NCBI RefSeq assembly: GCF_026870175.2
Contig: NZ_CP113977.2
Location: 62,001 to 126,000, forward strand
Direction: 5' to 3'
Length of the DNA stretch: 64,000 nt
From: Flavobacterium aestivum
GTDB lineage: Bacteria; Bacteroidota; Bacteroidia; Flavobacteriales; Flavobacteriaceae
Shown here: positions 504 through 39,304 of the stretch, in pieces
How positions within the stretch are numbered: position 1 is the first letter of the stretch
Layout: the number at the start of each line of letters is the position of its first letter
Translations under genes and position numbers: made by a program
Notes under the pieces: model-generated
Told to the model about the DNA's origin: nothing
Database searches by the model: none
What the model saw: the letters and a program-made list of their open reading frames with translations, nothing else

Positions 504-1778
504 CTACATTTTTAAAGCCTTAACTAATACTTTATCAATCTTTACGCCATCCATATCAATGACCTCTAACTCAAATTTTTGCCAAATCAACTTTTCTCCT
601 TCTTTTGGGATATGTGATAGCTCTGTCATGATTAATCCGCTCACTGTGGTCACTTCATAATCATTTATCAAATCATCCAGTTCGAAATAAGTAAGGAAAT
701 CATGCAACGAATAATGCCCGTCTACCATCCAAGTTCCGTCCTCTCTTTCGATTAACTGAAAATCGTCTTTATAAAAATCTGAGGCATTACCAACTAATGC
801 TTCAAGAATATCATTTAAAGTAATTACTCCTTGAAAAACTCCATATTCATCTGAAACCAATGCATAATGAATTCCTGTTTTTTTGAATTCCTCCAACGCT
901 CTATAAGCTGTGGTTTGTTCCATCATAAAAGGAGCATCAGTCATAATTTCGGCCAAATTGAAACTTTCATTTTCAAAATGGGAGAAAATATTTTTCAAAT
1001 TTACTACCCCTACAATATCATCATGGTTTTCGCCATAAACAGGATAAATAGAATGCAATTCTTTGAACATGGATTCCTTTACCTGATTCTTATCTGCCTG
1101 TAAAGGTAAAAGCACAACTGATTTTCTATGAGTCATCAACGAATTGATTTTTCGATCTCCGATATGAAATACACGTTCTACTATATCTTGTTCTATTTCT
1201 TGCACCTCACCCACTTCCGTACCTTCTTTGATGATGGCTTTGATTTCTTCTTCAGTTACTTTACCGTCTGCTGTGGGTTTAATTTGTAAAACATCCAATA
1301 AAAATTCAGTCGAAGTGGTTAGCAACCATATGAACGGCGCCGTAATTATCGATACCATTTTCATTGGTAATGCCACTGCTTTGGCAATTCCTTCTGGATG
1401 ATTTAACCCAATTCTTTTGGGTAATAACTCTCCTAATACCAAAGAAAAAAACGTTAATATCACAACTACAATACCTACTGCTATTGAATCTGCAAATGGA
1501 GCGAGTACCTTAAAACCTCTTATGAAGGCCTCAACATCTGCCGTGATTTTATCCCCACTGTAAATACCGGTAAGTATACCAATAAGCGTTATTCCTATTT
1601 GTACTGTAGAAAGAAATTTATTTGGCGAATTCGCTAAATCTAATGCGATTTGTGCGCTTTTATTCCCTTTTTTTGCAGCTGTTTCTAATCTATTTTTCCT
1701 AGCCGAAATTAATGCGATTTCCGACATAGAGAAAACCCCATTTAAGAGTATTAGAAAAAATATTATGAGTATTTCCAA
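504..1778 (-). CDS. CNNM/HlyC-CorC family transporter (DUF21 + CBS pair + CorC domain)
   Basis: A 424-residue inner-membrane protein. The N-terminal DUF21 region (about residues 1-190) has several hydrophobic segments, starting at MEILIIFFLILLNGVFSMSE. It is followed by the motif VTEEEIKAIIKEG and two CBS domains (about 200-330, e.g. LVSDEYGVFQGVITLNDILE). A C-terminal CorC/HlyC domain (about 340-424) contains WMVDGHYSLHDF. Family members are linked to Mg2+/Co2+ homeostasis; older labels such as hemolysin or gliding protein GldE describe relatives. GldE is a possibility I cannot exclude, but the position between adk and obg rather than beside gldD argues against it. Length and domain order are normal. 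Substrate is inferred from the family only. Confidence 0.88.
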   Translation of the reverse strand: MEILIIFFLILLNGVFSMSEIALISARKNRLETAAKKGNKSAQIALDLANSPNKFLSTVQIGITLIGILTGIYSGDKITADVEAFIRGFKVLAPFADSIAVGIVVVILTFFSLVLGELLPKRIGLNHPEGIAKAVALPMKMVSIITAPFIWLLTTSTEFLLDVLQIKPTADGKVTEEEIKAIIKEGTEVGEVQEIEQDIVERVFHIGDRKINSLMTHRKSVVLLPLQADKNQVKESMFKELHSIYPVYGENHDDIVGVVNLKNIFSHFENESFNLAEIMTDAPFMMEQTTAYRALEEFKKTGIHYALVSDEYGVFQGVITLNDILEALVGNASDFYKDDFQLIEREDGTWMVDGHYSLHDFLTYFELDDLINDYEVTTVSGLIMTELSHIPKEGEKLIWQKFELEVIDMDGVKIDKVLVKALKM

Positions 1779-1842
1779 TGTTTAGATGATTCGTTTATAT
1801 TTTTGATTCTTAGAATCTTGTTTTTGTGCAATCTTATTTTCA

Positions 1843-1989
1843 TAGCCCAGATGGAAGTGAAAAGCCCACAACCATAAAAAATTAATTTTTCTTGTTATAA
1901 AAGAGCGACCAAAGGAAGCTCCTTTTGTGGCATAGAAAAACAGTTTTTTATGGCGAGGACTTGTAACGTACAGCTGGAGATTGCTCCTA
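1843..1989 (-). repeat. REP-like 3'-UTR repeat, copy A (downstream of adk)
   Basis: A structured intergenic element also present at 15554-15678 and 38481-38606. In the direction of adk transcription it begins TAGGAGCAATCTCC, whose first three bases are the adk stop codon. It continues with GCTGTACGTTACAAGTCC, has a variable middle with several inverted repeats (for example ccataaaaaa against ttttttatgg), and ends CACTTCCATCTGGGCTA. The two ends are conserved among the three copies while the middle varies. It fills most of the gap between adk and the CBS-domain gene. It has no coding potential. Confidence 0.75.
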
Positions 1990-2559
1990 TAAATTATCGA
2001 TAACCGCTGTTAATCTTTCTGTAATTTCTTGAATAGATCCTATTCCGTTTACAGCATAAAATTTATTTTGATCTTTATAATACCCCATCAAAGGAGCTGT
2101 TTTTTCGTTGTATTCTTGGTAACGATTTCTGATTTTGTCTTCGTCTTGATCGTCTATTCTTCCGCTAGTTTTTCCTCTTTCAAGCAGTCTTTCTACTAAT
2201 ATATTATCATCGGCTTCAAGGGCAATTGTTGCTGCAACTTCTGAACCAATTGTTGGTAAAAACGCGTCTAATGCTTGAGCTTGAGAAATTGTTCTTGGGT
2301 ACCCATCAAATAAAATCCCGTTAGTATTTGGGTGTTTGTTCACCTCATCAATAAGCATTTTGGTAGTCAACTCGTCTGGCACTAAATCTCCAGCATCCAT
2401 GTATACTCTTGCTTCTTTTCCTAAAGCGGTGTCGTTTTTTAAATTATAACGAAAAACATCCCCGGTTGAAATGTGTGTTAAATTGTATTTTTCTTTTAAA
2501 AACTCAGCTTGAGTTCCTTTTCCTGCTCCTGGTTTTCCAAATAAAACTATATTAATCAT
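1987..2559 (-). CDS. adk: Adenylate kinase
   Basis: Cytosolic adenylate kinase (ATP + AMP to 2 ADP), 190 residues. The P-loop GKPGAGKGTQ is at residues 8-17. The AMP-binding segment has THISTGDVFRYNL and ILFDGYPRT, and the lid region RGKTSGRIDDQ is short. The protein is therefore the short-lid type without the four-cysteine zinc finger of long bacterial forms. The gene lies 32 bp after hpt on the same strand, so hpt-adk is probably one operon, serving purine salvage and nucleotide balance. The TAG stop is the first triplet of the REP-like element downstream. Confidence 0.97.
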   Translation of the reverse strand: MINIVLFGKPGAGKGTQAEFLKEKYNLTHISTGDVFRYNLKNDTALGKEARVYMDAGDLVPDELTTKMLIDEVNKHPNTNGILFDGYPRTISQAQALDAFLPTIGSEVAATIALEADDNILVERLLERGKTSGRIDDQDEDKIRNRYQEYNEKTAPLMGYYKDQNKFYAVNGIGSIQEITERLTAVIDNL

Positions 2560-12597: not shown

Positions 12598-15447
12598 ATG
12601 AAAACAGATTCTTTTGCTTTAAGACACATCGGGCCTAGAGAAACCGATTTACAACACATGTTAAAAACCATAGGAGTTGACTCCATTGAACAACTTGTTT
12701 ATGAGACACTTCCAGATGACATTCGCCTTAAAGCACCACTTGCATTAGATCCATCGATGACAGAATATGAGTATTCAAATCATATTGCTGAGTTAGGTAG
12801 CAAAAACAAAATGTTCCAAACTTATATCGGATTAGGATACAATCAAGCAATCGTACCAGCGGTTATTCAAAGAAATATTTTTGAAAATCCAGGATGGTAT
12901 ACCGCTTACACGCCTTACCAAGCCGAAATTGCTCAAGGACGTCTAGAAGCTATTTTGAATTTCCAAACAATGGTTGTTGAACTTACCGGAATGGAAATCG
13001 CTAATGCTTCATTACTTGACGAAGCTACAGCTGCTGCTGAAGCAATGGCATTATTATTTGACGTAAGAACACGTGACCAAAAGAAAAACAACTCTAATAA
13101 GTTCTTCGTTTCTGAAGAAATATTACCACAAACGTTATCAGTTTTAGAGACACGTTCTACTCCTATCGGAATAGAATTGGTTGTTGGAAATCACGAAAAC
13201 TTTGATTTTTCAACAGAATTTTTTGGTGCTATCCTTCAATATCCAGGAAAATATGGTCAAGTAAATGACTATACTTCATTCATCGCAAAAGCTGCTGCAA
13301 GTGAAATTAAAGTAGCTGTAGCTGCTGATATTTTGAGTTTAACAAAACTAACTCCTCCAGGAGAAATGGGAGCTGCTGTTGTTGTTGGAACTACACAACG
13401 TTTCGGAATTCCGTTAGGTTATGGTGGACCACACGCTGCTTATTTTGCTACCAAAGAAGAGTTCAAACGCTCTATGCCAGGAAGAATCATCGGGGTAACG
13501 ATTGATACTAACGGTAATCGTGCACTTCGTATGGCTTTGCAAACTCGTGAACAACACATTAAACGTGATAAAGCGACTTCAAATATCTGTACTGCACAGG
13601 TTTTATTATCTGTTATGGCCGGAATGTACGCTGTATACCATGGTCCAAAAGGATTGCAGTATATCGCTGACAAAGTACATGCTTTGGCAGTTACATTAGC
13701 AAACGAGTTAGAGAAACAAGGTTTACAACAAACCAATACAGCTTTCTTTGATACTATCGTAATCAAAGCCGATGCTAAAAAAGTTCGTGCTATTGCTGAA
13801 CAAAACGAAGTAAACTTTTACTACGTAGACGAAAATACAGTTTCTATCTCTTTGAACGAAACTACAAGTATTGCTGACATCAATAAAATAGCTGGTATTT
13901 TTGCTTCTGCAAACGGAAAACAAGCAACAAACATTGAGACTTTATCAGAGACTAATCATTTCCCAGAAGAATTAAACAGAACATCATCTTTCTTACAACA
14001 TGATGTTTTCAACAAATTCCACTCTGAGACAGCAATGATGCGTTACATCAAAATGTTGGAGCGTAAAGATTTATCATTGAACCACTCTATGATTTCTTTG
14101 GGATCTTGTACAATGAAACTGAACGCAGCTTCTGAAATGTTACCATTAAGCAATGCACTTTGGAACAACATTCACCCATTTGCACCATTAGATCAAGCAC
14201 AAGGATACCAAGAAATGTTGTCTAAATTAGAACAACAATTAAACGTAATTACTGGTTTTGCAGGAACAACTTTACAACCTAACTCAGGTGCACAAGGAGA
14301 ATATGCAGGATTAATGGTAATTCGCGCATACCACCAATCTCGTGGAGATCACCACAGAAACATTGCTTTAATTCCATCATCAGCTCACGGAACTAATCCA
14401 GCTTCTGCAGCTATGGCAGGTATGAAAGTAATCGTAACTAAAACATTAGAAAACGGAAATATAGACGTAGATGATTTACGTGAAAAAGCAATTCTTCACA
14501 AAGATAACCTATCTTGTTTGATGGTTACTTACCCATCTACTCACGGGGTTTACGAAAGTGCTATCATCGAAATCACACAATTAATCCACGAAAACGGTGG
14601 ACAAGTATACATGGACGGAGCTAATATGAATGCACAAGTTGGTTTAACTAACCCTGCAACTATTGGAGCTGACGTTTGTCACTTGAACCTTCACAAAACA
14701 TTTGCAATCCCTCACGGTGGTGGTGGACCAGGTGTTGGACCAATTTGCGTAGCGAAACACTTAGTTCCTTTCTTGCCATCTAACCCAGTTATTCCTACTG
14801 GTGGAGATAATGCCATCACAGGTATTTCTGCAGCACCTTGGGGATCTGCATTAGTATGTTTAATCTCTTACGGTTACATCACTATGCTTGGAGCTGAAGG
14901 TTTAAAAGAATCTACAGAACGTGCTATATTAAACGCTAATTACCTTAAAGAAAAATTAAACGGTCATTACGATACATTATATTCTGGTGAAATGGGTCGT
15001 GCAGCTCACGAAATGATCTTAGAATGTCGTCCTTTCAAACAAAAAGGAATCGAAGTTACTGATATCGCTAAACGTTTAATGGATTATGGTTTCCACGCGC
15101 CAACCGTTTCTTTCCCAGTAGCAGGAACCTTAATGGTTGAACCTACTGAAAGTGAAAACTTAGAAGAATTAGATCGTTTTTGTGACGCTATGATTGCTAT
15201 TCGTAAAGAAATCGAAGCAGCATCTATAGAAGATAGCAACAACGTATTGAAAAATTCTCCTCATACATTAGCTATGCTTACAGCTGAAACTTGGGATTTC
15301 CCATACAGCAGAGAGCAAGCAGCTTTCCCATTAGATTACATCGCCGAAAACAAATTCTGGCCTACAGTTCGTAGAGCTGATGATGCTTACGGAGACAGAA
15401 ATCTAGTATGTAGCTGTGCACCTATCGAGGCTTACATGGAAAGCTAG
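12598..15447 (+). CDS. gcvP: Glycine dehydrogenase (P-protein), single-chain
   Basis: PLP-dependent glycine decarboxylase of the glycine cleavage system. It has 949 residues, the fused (alpha plus beta) form. It begins FALRHIGPRETDLQHMLKTIG, typical of GcvP. The pyridoxal-phosphate lysine is at about residue 700 in HLNLHKTFAIPHGGGGPG. Other signatures are ISLGSCTMKLNA and PNSGAQGEYAGLM. The GcvT and GcvH partners are not in this window. It is a single gene between its own promoter and terminator. Confidence 0.98.
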   Translation: MKTDSFALRHIGPRETDLQHMLKTIGVDSIEQLVYETLPDDIRLKAPLALDPSMTEYEYSNHIAELGSKNKMFQTYIGLGYNQAIVPAVIQRNIFENPGWYTAYTPYQAEIAQGRLEAILNFQTMVVELTGMEIANASLLDEATAAAEAMALLFDVRTRDQKKNNSNKFFVSEEILPQTLSVLETRSTPIGIELVVGNHENFDFSTEFFGAILQYPGKYGQVNDYTSFIAKAAASEIKVAVAADILSLTKLTPPGEMGAAVVVGTTQRFGIPLGYGGPHAAYFATKEEFKRSMPGRIIGVTIDTNGNRALRMALQTREQHIKRDKATSNICTAQVLLSVMAGMYAVYHGPKGLQYIADKVHALAVTLANELEKQGLQQTNTAFFDTIVIKADAKKVRAIAEQNEVNFYYVDENTVSISLNETTSIADINKIAGIFASANGKQATNIETLSETNHFPEELNRTSSFLQHDVFNKFHSETAMMRYIKMLERKDLSLNHSMISLGSCTMKLNAASEMLPLSNALWNNIHPFAPLDQAQGYQEMLSKLEQQLNVITGFAGTTLQPNSGAQGEYAGLMVIRAYHQSRGDHHRNIALIPSSAHGTNPASAAMAGMKVIVTKTLENGNIDVDDLREKAILHKDNLSCLMVTYPSTHGVYESAIIEITQLIHENGGQVYMDGANMNAQVGLTNPATIGADVCHLNLHKTFAIPHGGGGPGVGPICVAKHLVPFLPSNPVIPTGGDNAITGISAAPWGSALVCLISYGYITMLGAEGLKESTERAILNANYLKEKLNGHYDTLYSGEMGRAAHEMILECRPFKQKGIEVTDIAKRLMDYGFHAPTVSFPVAGTLMVEPTESENLEELDRFCDAMIAIRKEIEAASIEDSNNVLKNSPHTLAMLTAETWDFPYSREQAAFPLDYIAENKFWPTVRRADDAYGDRNLVCSCAPIEAYMES

Positions 15448-15471: not shown

Positions 15472-15509
15472 AAAAACCCTTTCAGTAACTAAAAACTGAA
15501 AGGGTTTTT
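15472..15509 (+). terminator. Intrinsic terminator of gcvP
   Basis: The exact 15-bp arms aaaaaccctttcagt and actgaaagggttttt with an 8-nt loop lie 24 bp after the gcvP stop codon. Confidence 0.93.
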
Positions 15510-15553
15510 CATTTACAAGCATTAATAAGAAGCAAACCTTTACAAGTTTTCAT

Positions 15554-15678
15554 CCTAATTCCTCCTGCTGTCCGCTGCACACGAGCGATAGCGAACTGAC
15601 GAAGTAATTCCCAATTAACAAAAACTACGGCAAAAGCCTTTTTTTTTAAATCGGGAGATGCCGCTTCCATCAGGGCTA
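15554..15678 (+). repeat. REP-like 3'-UTR repeat, copy B (downstream of gcvP)
   Basis: Same family as 1843-1989 and 38481-38606, in the gcvP orientation. The best conserved part is 15607-15678: attccc, then a stem whose loop holds ACTACGGCAAAAGCC, then tcgggagat, and the end CCGCTTCCATCAGGGCTA. The first part (cctgctgtccgctgc) is more diverged and carries extra sequence compared with copy C. The open frame on the minus strand here is a by-product of the repeat. Confidence 0.75.
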
Positions 15679-15991
15679 TTTTACCCATTTTTATTTTCAA
15701 AACAGAGAATCAAAGTCGAAACAAAAACACAACTGCTTTACTCTTTTTCAATTTAACAAATGTATTCCTTAATAAACAAAATAGTTTATTTAAGAGTATA
15801 CTCACAGCCTTTGCTATTTTCATTAAATTAAAGATAAAGTCTATCATTTAGCAATATCCAATGCGATATATTCAATAAATTTACAATAAATTCAATATTA
15901 CACAATTATATGCATGCATAGTAATTATTTTGTTTTTTATACATTTTTTATAATTACTTTAGCCGACATATACATCTGGAAATTATCAAAA
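15679..15991. other. AT-rich intergenic stretch before the FabH-like gene
   Basis: 313 bp without a supportable gene. It contains a weak inverted repeat (ttaataaac at 15769, gtttatttaa at 15784) and a 12-bp palindrome tatgcatgcata (15909-15920). A reading frame open from 15914 joins the FabH-like gene in frame, but its residues are hydrophobic and unlike the family. No convincing -7 box is present. Confidence 0.5.
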
Positions 15992-37503: not shown

Positions 37504-37568
37504 TCTTGACAATTTTTAGTACATTTCAACGTTTTTATAAGTACACTTTTTTTAATTCAATTTCCACA

Positions 37569-38471
37569 ATGAGTTCTACACTTTCCAACGATCAAAAGAA
37601 ATCATTAGCCCTATCTATACTCATTTATGCAGCATTACTATTGCTGTTGTTTTTCATTCGTTTTTGGCCTCCAGCTAATCTCGAAGAAATTGTTGGCAGT
37701 GGCGGTGGCGGTGGCGGTGTTACTTTAAACTTTGGCGATAGTGATTTAGGATCGGGAAAAAATATGCAAAGTGAAGTTTTGAATGTTCAGAATCAAGTCA
37801 AACAAACTCCAACTAAAAGCACTCCAGACGAAGCCATTTTATCTCAAGAAAATGCCACAGAAGAAAGTGTAGTTATACCAACAAAAGAAAAAACTAAAAA
37901 AACGGAAGTTGTTGTCAAAGAAACTCCAAAACCTGAAGTGGTAAAACCAAAAGTTTCGAATTCTACCAATGATGCTTTAGCCAACATTCTAAAAGGTTCC
38001 AACAAAGGCGGCGACGGTGATGATAAAACTGCGGGCAACAAAGGAAAATCCAACGGAAGTTTAACTGCGACTGGCTATTATGGCACAGGCGGTTCTGGTG
38101 GTGGTACAGGCGGCGGAAATGGAACTGGAAACGGCATTGGTAATGGTAGTGGTTACGGCCCAGGAAGCGGAGGCGGCTCTGGAGGCGGCACAGGAGGTGG
38201 ATCTGGTTATTCGCTTGGTAATAGAAAAGCACTCTCCAAACCTGCCCCAAAATACACTTGTAACGAATCCGGCAAAGTGGTCGTTGAAGTCTCTGTAGAT
38301 AGAAACGGAAATACCATCAACGCCGTTGCAGGAATCAAAGGCACAACCAATACTGCAAAATGCCTATTGGATCAAGCCCGAATTGCAGCCATGAATACCA
38401 GATGGGATGCCAGTAATGACGCTCCCGAAAAACAAATTGGCAAGATTGTTTATAATTTCAATTTGAATTAA
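37569..38471 (+). CDS. TonB-like energy transducer with glycine-rich linker
   Basis: 300 residues. An N-terminal membrane anchor (about 13-31, ALSILIYAALLLLLFFIRF) is followed by a periplasmic spacer. The spacer is not proline-rich as in E. coli TonB but ends in a glycine tract (about residues 170-215, made of GGSGGG and GTGNG units). A small C-terminal domain (YTCNESGKVVVEVSVDRNGN, IGKIVYNFNLN) matches the TonB-C-like fold. ATG 37569 is chosen; an earlier in-frame start adds unlikely residues. It faces the exbD-exbB pair across one gene and probably works with it in energising outer-membrane uptake. Confidence 0.8.
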   Translation: MSSTLSNDQKKSLALSILIYAALLLLLFFIRFWPPANLEEIVGSGGGGGGVTLNFGDSDLGSGKNMQSEVLNVQNQVKQTPTKSTPDEAILSQENATEESVVIPTKEKTKKTEVVVKETPKPEVVKPKVSNSTNDALANILKGSNKGGDGDDKTAGNKGKSNGSLTATGYYGTGGSGGGTGGGNGTGNGIGNGSGYGPGSGGGSGGGTGGGSGYSLGNRKALSKPAPKYTCNESGKVVVEVSVDRNGNTINAVAGIKGTTNTAKCLLDQARIAAMNTRWDASNDAPEKQIGKIVYNFNLN

Positions 38472-38480
38472 AACAATAAT

Positions 38481-38606
38481 TAGGAGCACTCCTTTTTTGC
38501 AATTCATCAACAGTAGTCCCGCTGTACGCTACAATTCCCGATTTAGAAAAACTACGGCAAAACCTTGTTTTTCTAAATCAGGAGATTTCCACTTCCATCG
38601 GGGCTA
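38481..38606 (+). repeat. REP-like 3'-UTR repeat, copy C (downstream of tonB)
   Basis: In the tonB direction: TAGGAGCACTCC 10 bp after the stop codon, then GTCCCGCTGTACGCTACAAT and a 16-bp stem (cccgatttagaaaaac / gtttttctaaatcagg, one mismatch). The stem's loop is TACGGCAAAACCTT, and the element ends CCACTTCCATCGGGGCTA. Ends and loop match copies A (1843-1989) and B (15554-15678). Confidence 0.8.
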
Positions 38607-38683
38607 GTTTACGAATTTAATTTTTCAAAACAGCTTTTCCTTAATAACTATCCGCAATTACGATCGCATCTCAATACTATAAC

Positions 38684-39304
38684 TTAATCGTATTTCGGGA
38701 AAAAGAGAATTTCTTCTTTATTATTAGCTATAGCTGAACTTCTAATCTCTTTTAAACAAGCACCTTTTTCATCTTTGGCTACACAGTTTATCAAAACTTC
38801 GTCAATAAGCATATCATTTTTGTCCTTGATAACAATTCTGGAGAGCTCTTTATTCACATAATAGAAATACTGAGTATAGAAAGTTGAAAAATTATCTGTT
38901 ATTCTATCAATAGTTCCATCTGTATTATAATGATAAATGCTTTCGTTTTGTTTGTATTGCTTTTTAGTATAACAACTAATACGTTCACGTTGTTTAGGTT
39001 TCCAACGTGTTTTACAGTAATATGGCTCTCTGTCTGGATATGATTCTACTACAAACCACAATCTTTTTTCTGTCTCCTGCAATAGACTACCTGCTGAATC
39101 AACCGTTTTAGAGTATTTGATACGGCCATTCCCAGTAAAGACCATCTCTTTTTTATACAAAAGTTTTTTCTGATTATTTACGACAACATATTTTTCTTCG
39201 GTTACCGATTTTATTCCTTCCGGCAGCAACCGTTTATTAATATCTTTTTTCGTAGCACACGATTGTACTATCAAGAGAAGTAGTAAAACAAACAAAACTC
39301 TCAT
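38684..39304 (-). CDS. Hypothetical lipoprotein
   Basis: A 206-residue predicted lipoprotein with the lipobox IVQSC (Cys16) after MRVLFVLLLLL. The mature part is polar, with repeated short strands (KYVVVNNQKKLLYKKEMVF, YYCKTRWKPKQRERISCYTK) resembling YD- or MORN-like beta hairpins. No family is recognised. It lies between the tonB repeat and the exbD terminator and is transcribed on its own. It is probably an outer-membrane or periplasmic-face lipoprotein. Confidence 0.75.
   Translation of the reverse strand: MRVLFVLLLLLIVQSCATKKDINKRLLPEGIKSVTEEKYVVVNNQKKLLYKKEMVFTGNGRIKYSKTVDSAGSLLQETEKRLWFVVESYPDREPYYCKTRWKPKQRERISCYTKKQYKQNESIYHYNTDGTIDRITDNFSTFYTQYFYYVNKELSRIVIKDKNDMLIDEVLINCVAKDEKGACLKEIRSSAIANNKEEILFFPKYD

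Follow-up and report, generated by a model that had tools for sequence, protein, structure and literature searches.

The window analysed here, a stretch of 64,000 nucleotides from the genome of Flavobacterium aestivum (G000), holds three look-alike elements, each lying next to at least one gene. Copy A (1843..1989, 147 nt), a long-armed variant with an extra inner hairpin (GAGCGACC..GGAAGCTC), is located between two minus-strand genes: adk, encoding adenylate kinase (1987..2559; PF00406, E 1.9e-48), and a gene for a CNNM/CorC-type transporter (504..1727). Its structured strand, the plus strand, is antisense to both. Copy B (15552..15686, structured strand minus) is degraded; it no longer has the GGAG-CTCC end, and an insert occupies about 15580-15608. 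Copy B lies approximately 105 nt past gcvP (12598..15447, plus strand; PF02347), behind a separate terminator-like hairpin with a T run (about 15472..15510, plus strand; by eye) that is outside the element and is present in close relatives too, again by eye. The insert reads CACGAGCGATAGCGAACTGACGAAGTAAT; related stretches occur in L053, L049 and L033. Copy C consists of a core (38506..38614, structured strand minus; found by both RF01705 and R1) and a 3' arm (38481..38505, minus) that falls outside the Rfam model and reads TAGGAGC... on the plus strand. It begins 10 nt past an ORF named tonB in an earlier, sequence-only reading of this DNA (37506..38471, plus strand); on its far side is a convergent ORF (38684..39304, minus strand), so that copy C is downstream of two ORFs. 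Neither ORF has a Pfam family at E 0.001.

The sequence-only reading had reported three related copies with a common end, CYTCCATCnGGGCTA, a stretch (ACTACGGCAAAA) shared by B and C, and a GGAG...CTCC pairing at the opposite end in A and C. We located the copies at the positions reported, and all of these features are present in the sequence. The reading had also placed the starts of A and C near a stop codon, which held: the last 3 nt of copy A are TAG, the stop codon of adk, and copy C has the 10-nt spacing given above. Its description of the elements as always directly downstream of a gene needs two qualifications within the window: the distance of B from gcvP, with the hairpin in between, and the second ORF at C.

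What are these elements? All three belong to one family that is already known in Bacteroidetes, Rfam RF01705 (“Flavo-1”). Copy C matches this model on the minus strand with 58.5 bits (Rfam coordinates 38511-38609), above the family cut-off of 42 bits, and copy B, with 33.1 bits, falls under it. Copy A was unlisted among the RF01705 matches at gathering score in a search of the window and the genome. We also employed a second model, R1, for which 20 Flavo-1 copies of type I were used and the window's three were left out. In a search of 389 kb, R1 recovered copy A at 1835-1989 (plus; E 1e-10), copy B at 15552-15686 (minus; E 7e-5) and copy C at 38506-38614 (minus; E 4e-13), all of these E-values being rough. 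Because a model trained without them recovers all three, their resemblance is not due to chance. Flavo-1 (Weinberg et al. 2010, PMC2864571) and the elements described here have the same core, loops, pairing and Bacteroidetes distribution. Copy A differs from RF01705 in its longer paired arms and its extra inner hairpin, and the arms of the copies exceed the Rfam model. What is known is the Flavo-1 family itself, and the window copies, the long-armed variant among them, are members of it. A review (PMC9029176) includes Flavo-1 in its account of the most abundant sRNA families, with no function given in the passage located; likewise, the located passages of PMC2864571, PMC9723704 and PMC9029176 give no mechanism.

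On the Rfam strand, the 5' half of the core in type I copies is TAGCCCYGAT-R-GNAG-YGG-AAATCC; next comes an apical hairpin, which is variable, and then the 3' half, GATT-GNAAC-GNAY-AGCRGGA. The core spans about 76-90 nt, and arms of roughly 20-45 nt extend past it, many copies ending in GCTCC. A CCYG/CRGG pairing forms the base of the fold; type I copies have two GNA/GNA internal loops, a region that differs in other Flavo-1 subtypes. Other palindromes (e.g. TCCCGATAGCTATCGGGA) are found inside the apical part of copies L347, L242, L093 and L359, giving the look of an insertion or swap site, and a RAYT-type palindrome occurs in the same part of a copy from the relative G056.

The limits of the element were examined in 74 copies from three genomes, all but one of which could be anchored. 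Two classes (23 long and 36 short copies) accounted for 59 of the 73 aligned copies, and 14 fell in neither. Pairwise identity in the two classes fell from 0.92-0.96 at the 5' end of the core to 0.31-0.56 in the arms and 0.25-0.32 beyond them; a few of the aligned copies are orthologous or rRNA-linked, an effect that can only raise the similarity of the flanks. In the 59 copies, similarity reached background approximately 50 nt outside the core, and Flavo-1 is therefore a bounded dispersed repeat.

MITEs, e.g. Correia or ERIC elements, are similarly small repeats of non-autonomous appearance. We saw no robust terminal inverted repeat in Flavo-1, in which it is unlike them, and we know of no parent transposase for it. 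The two arms of a copy were not inverted repeats above the chance level (p 0.97). In the long-class copy L353, the T-run and A-run ends do pair in the predicted fold, as a MITE of a DDE insertion sequence might have it; among five copies folded, such pairing appeared in L353 only, and partly in L345. We give this origin hardly any credence. As direct repeats, the arms gave a weak signal: the within-copy score was 15.0, compared to 13.59 across copies (p 0.0066; 44 copies). In L022, L332, L345-L347 and L009, the arm 5' of TAGCC is repeated, imperfectly and in direct orientation, in the arm that precedes the final GCTCC.

To assess the fold, covariation was counted in a single alignment, A2, as the other (A1) mixes and misregisters subtypes. 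Among 20 dispersed copies, 96.4% of pair cells were standard, and 10 of the 21 pairs showed a two-sided change. Two-sided changes occupied 67 cells, where shuffling gave a mean of 20.9 and the slid controls reached 14 at most; since the copies are mutually related, the shuffle figure is not a probability. The sequence-only reading had proposed a structured repeat and had named a lack of stem covariation as what would speak against it. The stems covary, in the dispersed copies and, more weakly, at the adk site; its covariation argument and its REP-like intuition were sound.

It is the Rfam strand that is structured, i.e. the complement of the strand that the sequence-only reading called the transcript sense. 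Two results lead to this assignment. Predicted folding energy was lower on the Rfam strand in 54 of 74 copies, and G.T pairs exceeded A.C pairs in the apical stems on that strand: 21 vs. 2 in the 67 of 74 copies that could be parsed, 17 vs. 3 in 37 of 39 copies of G000 (a set overlapping the 74), 31 vs. 9 in 88 of 88 Flavo-1 matches from named-species records, and 1 vs. 0 in 30 of 30 genus copies. Split by gene context (symbols as explained below), the G000 counts of G.T/A.C were 3/0 (-F-), 8/2 (+F+), 3/1 (-F+) and 3/0 (+F-). A register-free stem count of the opposite sign (G.T 33 vs. A.C 46) was set aside, as it crosses a bulged C.

The copy at adk could be followed at a fixed site. In 10 species the fold was kept, with a two-sided change in 16 of 42 predicted pairs. 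Twelve of these 16 pairs rest on one replaced apical stem common to three genomes (G030, G271 and G094) and four pairs change apart from it, so the independent compensations at this site are few. Compared to five more distant species, identity was 0.85-0.94 in the 5' and 3' core of the window's copy and 0.65-0.75 in the adjacent 60 nt (shuffled, 0.62-0.68). Compared to four nearer species, identity was 0.88-0.92 in the adjacent 60 nt, 0.96-1.00 in the 5' core and 0.76-0.88 in the 3' core; that of the apical part was 0.66 in three of them and 0.88 in G179 (shuffled, 0.56). Relative to the window, G271, G030 and G094 have the whole apical stem swapped for an unrelated self-complementary one, within surroundings that are 0.88-0.92 identical. 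From these comparisons, the Flavo-1 core looks, at the longer distance, to be under selection in place at adk, and exchange of the apical hairpin can apparently outpace change in its surroundings. The new stem could have come from another copy by gene conversion. Selection in place fits a function as host RNA as well as one as DNA.

Does the family at large keep to the arrangement seen in the window? Searching the single 4.58-Mb contig of G000 yielded 47 RF01705 matches with E <= 0.001 among the best 150 of 1179 candidates, 38 of them over the cut-off. The long variant represented by copy A had 10 blastn matches, itself included, one of which was also an Rfam match. Our own ORF scorer was used to tally gene context for 39 of the 47 Rfam matches and, among the 10 long-variant matches, for 8, with the variant copy L058 excluded; the remaining 8 Rfam matches lie beside rRNA operons and were set apart. 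With the Rfam strand taken as plus and F marking the element, the 47 non-rRNA copies were distributed as follows: -F- 15, +F+ 12, -F+ (divergent genes) 16 and +F- (convergent genes) 4. In 20 sampled stretches of 20 kb, a fraction of 0.70 of the bases in intergenic gaps of 150 bp or more lies between codirectional genes, 0.21 between divergent and 0.09 between convergent ones, for an expectation of about 33/10/4 (by hand, chi-square about 4.8 and p about 0.09). The orientation of Flavo-1 to genes is thus not fixed and is close to the intergenic make-up, and the three window copies fit the proposed rule by happenstance. A gene facing the element as that rule describes was present for 19 of the 47 copies, and within 20 nt for 6 of the 47; distances were measured from where the Rfam or blastn match ends, and 3'-armed copies (such as copy C, at 39 nt) count as farther away than they really are. 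The claim that the element always follows a gene in that gene's orientation therefore does not extend to the genome, and the random orientation and position that its proponent had named as evidence against it are what the tally gives. A replication-strand bias is known for IS200-type elements. None was clear for the 39 non-rRNA Rfam matches of G000 (18 co, 21 anti; by hand), nor for 33 of the 128 copies of G179 (13/20; by hand); G271, having an ambiguous GC skew, was left out of this tally. The lack of such a bias counts against transposition of Flavo-1 as ssDNA. The context tally agrees with the located passages of Guerin et al. (2021, PMC9723704) on F. psychrophilum, where Flavo-1 lies indistinctly sense or antisense of transcribed regions, with many copies outside them.

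Five rRNA operons of G000 were examined (L269-L273). Each has a Flavo-1 approximately 820 bp upstream of the 16S gene and antisense to it; three of the five also have, past 5S, a variant Flavo-1 whose ends are GCATG, and the operons cease to be homologous near the elements. Repeats of 6.3 kb, considered as a possible autonomous element, were rejected when they proved to be the rRNA operons themselves.

The sequence-only reading had entertained a 3'-UTR element kept for mRNA 3'-end function, that is, a terminator or stabilizer retained downstream of genes. All three window copies do follow a gene, and 40 of 71 copies have a T5 run no farther than 50 nt from the antisense 3' end, as do 15 of 71 controls. 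These T runs, however, were not adjacent to the hairpin in the copies inspected, and the structured strand is the other one. Nor was the intrinsic-terminator pattern found: a sense-strand 3' T5 run accompanied 10 of the 71 copies and 13 of the 71 controls. As a general explanation it also fails on the 16 of 47 copies between divergent genes, on the separate hairpin that precedes copy B, and on the indistinct sense and antisense placement in F. psychrophilum (PMC9723704, passages located). We consider such a role highly unlikely. Within 50 nt 3' of the element, an A5 run was present in 53 of 71 copies and in 12 of 71 controls (G000, G179 and G271).

Another reading is a functional RNA. Here, the Rfam strand would be transcribed as a multi-copy sRNA or an antisense or UTR element that is bound by protein or pairs with targets. 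The strand-specific fold and its covariation are what such an RNA would display, as is the conserved core at the fixed adk site; Rfam files RF01705 under the type 'sRNA', and in F. psychrophilum Flavo-1 coincides with several 5' transcribed regions (PMC9723704, passages located). The same passages, with their indistinct strand usage and their many copies outside transcribed regions, also count against it, as do the lack of a fixed strand relative to genes and the adk locus, where both neighbours run against the structured strand. Promoters were sought as well. The promoter motif TAnnTTTG was not enriched upstream of the elements (5 of 71 copies vs. 2 of 71 controls); a conserved promoter was not found. 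On balance we regard a functional RNA as possible but rather unlikely.

The copy number of Flavo-1 varies. Among the best 150 candidates per genome, seven relatives (gcvP identity 88-91%) had at least 57-128 copies each, against 47 in G000. With the best 35 candidates per genome and stricter filters, at least 113 of 121 genus genomes had a match, and 8 had none; in the phylum, with the best 15 candidates per genome, at least 44 of 296 genomes and at least 22 of 139 genera had one. Plasmid and phage collections gave zero matches to one Flavo-1 query copy, and viral contigs gave no exact match to one Flavo-1 pattern. Two outlying occurrences were recorded: in Pedobacter miscanthi (L186), a tandem array with 272-bp units and 4 exact pattern matches, and, in a contig titled uncultured Psychrobacter (L174), the name of a gammaproteobacterium, a Flavo-1-like element that reflects either transfer or a mislabelled contig.

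Individual sites vary between relatives. By eye, in 20 of 30 adk loci, the element was whole in 6 (the window's included), a remnant in 1 and not seen in 13; four further relatives also have Flavo-1 after adk. At gcvP, it was whole in 5 of 30 loci, altered in 1 (the window), internally deleted in 2 and not seen in 22, again by eye. At the tonB site it is also present in G179 and in G056, the latter with a different apical stem. In the gcvP region of G271, G030 and G179 (L280, L284 and L274-L275), two partly degraded copies of a unit of terminator hairpin plus Flavo-1 enclose a small gene that by eye is TonB-plug-like; G000 and G056 have one such unit, without the gene. A clean empty site, in which a target-site duplication of the MITE kind could be read, was not obtained, the one G179-only copy in a syntenic stretch being placed in a diverged intergenic region, and transposition of Flavo-1 is for this reason something that we only infer.

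If the element does move, is it carried by a RAYT (Y1) transposase, as the sequence-only reading had suggested? Like the REP/BIME sequences of RAYT (TnpA-REP) transposases, Flavo-1 is short, structured, dispersed, extragenic and of high copy number. It differs from them in being longer, in its conserved internal loops, in its location away from the RAYT genes scanned, and in having no constant GTAG/CGTC foot: by eye, the 5' base of the hairpin is TAGCCC after a variable letter (L049 happens on GTAG). RAYT-like genes do exist in G000, which has two Y1 genes by Pfam (one below the cut-off) and a third by similarity, and the first two sit among other palindromes. Our examination covered the loci of 61 Y1 or RAYT-like genes, pooled without regard to subclass. 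One Bacteroidetes Y1 subclass, 2.6, is described (PMC6006769, passages located) as having atypical secondary structures on its flanks, copies of which are found elsewhere in the genome; this counts in favour of the idea, as does a clear Flavo-1 within 1.5 kb at 2 of 30 loci of Pfam-found Y1 genes.

Most of the remaining evidence speaks against a RAYT. A relative of the RAYT-like protein of L040 was present in 52 of 121 genus genomes, and the best loci of 30 of these 52 held no convincing Flavo-1. Matches of 20.3 bits at L404 and 19.9 bits at L039 both lay over palindromes of another kind, and no convincing match was found at the L039/L040 loci. A palindrome was within 600 nt of the RAYT-like gene in 25 of the 30 loci, 11 of them of the type CCTAACAGG...CCTGTTAGG (a tally made at these loci, with no random-locus count beside it); loci with palindromes of their own indicate that the test was able to see a cognate repeat. 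Next to Flavobacterium RAYT-like genes (L039, L040 and L402-L431) are palindromes, CCTAACAGGTTTNNAAACCTGTTAGG for example, that look like REPs belonging to these genes. In 400 kb of G000, the motif CCTAACAGGTTT had 11 matches over both strands; G179 and G271, genomes that have more Flavo-1 than G000, had 0 matches in 200 kb each. In G030, no Y1 or RAYT-like gene was detected, despite at least 104 Flavo-1 matches. Across the 121 genus genomes, the presence of Flavo-1 does not follow that of Y1/RAYT genes: Y1 genes occurred in 4 of 8 Flavo-1-free genomes vs. 83 of 113 others. RAYTs are present, then, but in the company of other palindromes, and movement of Flavo-1 by one of them is improbable.

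The attC sites of integrons offer another comparison. In these, one strand folds, the basal part is conserved, the apical part is variable, and the site can follow genes. Flavo-1 likewise has one folded strand with a conserved base and a variable apex; it differs in occurring in both orientations to genes.

Taken as a whole, the explanation that we find somewhat probable is that Flavo-1 is a dispersed extragenic repeat, REP-like yet not RAYT-borne: a bounded element in tens to more than 100 copies per genome. One strand, that of Rfam, keeps its fold by compensatory change and would act as a folded single strand. It would more likely do so in DNA than as part of a neighbouring mRNA because its strand and position are unconstrained and a conserved promoter was not found, a preference for folded DNA over RNA that we hold with modest confidence. 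Its spread within genomes would be independent of the RAYTs present. A more specific version is tentative and, in our judgement, doubtful: Flavo-1 might be a host-functional folded ssDNA, one strand of which is selected in place, with the apical hairpin exchanged as a module and a mobilizer unrelated to known RAYTs. The strand-neutral gene context, the dispersal, the covariation at a fixed site and the failed link to RAYTs make of a vague annotation a question that can be tested: does Flavo-1 act as folded DNA or as RNA, and by what is it moved?
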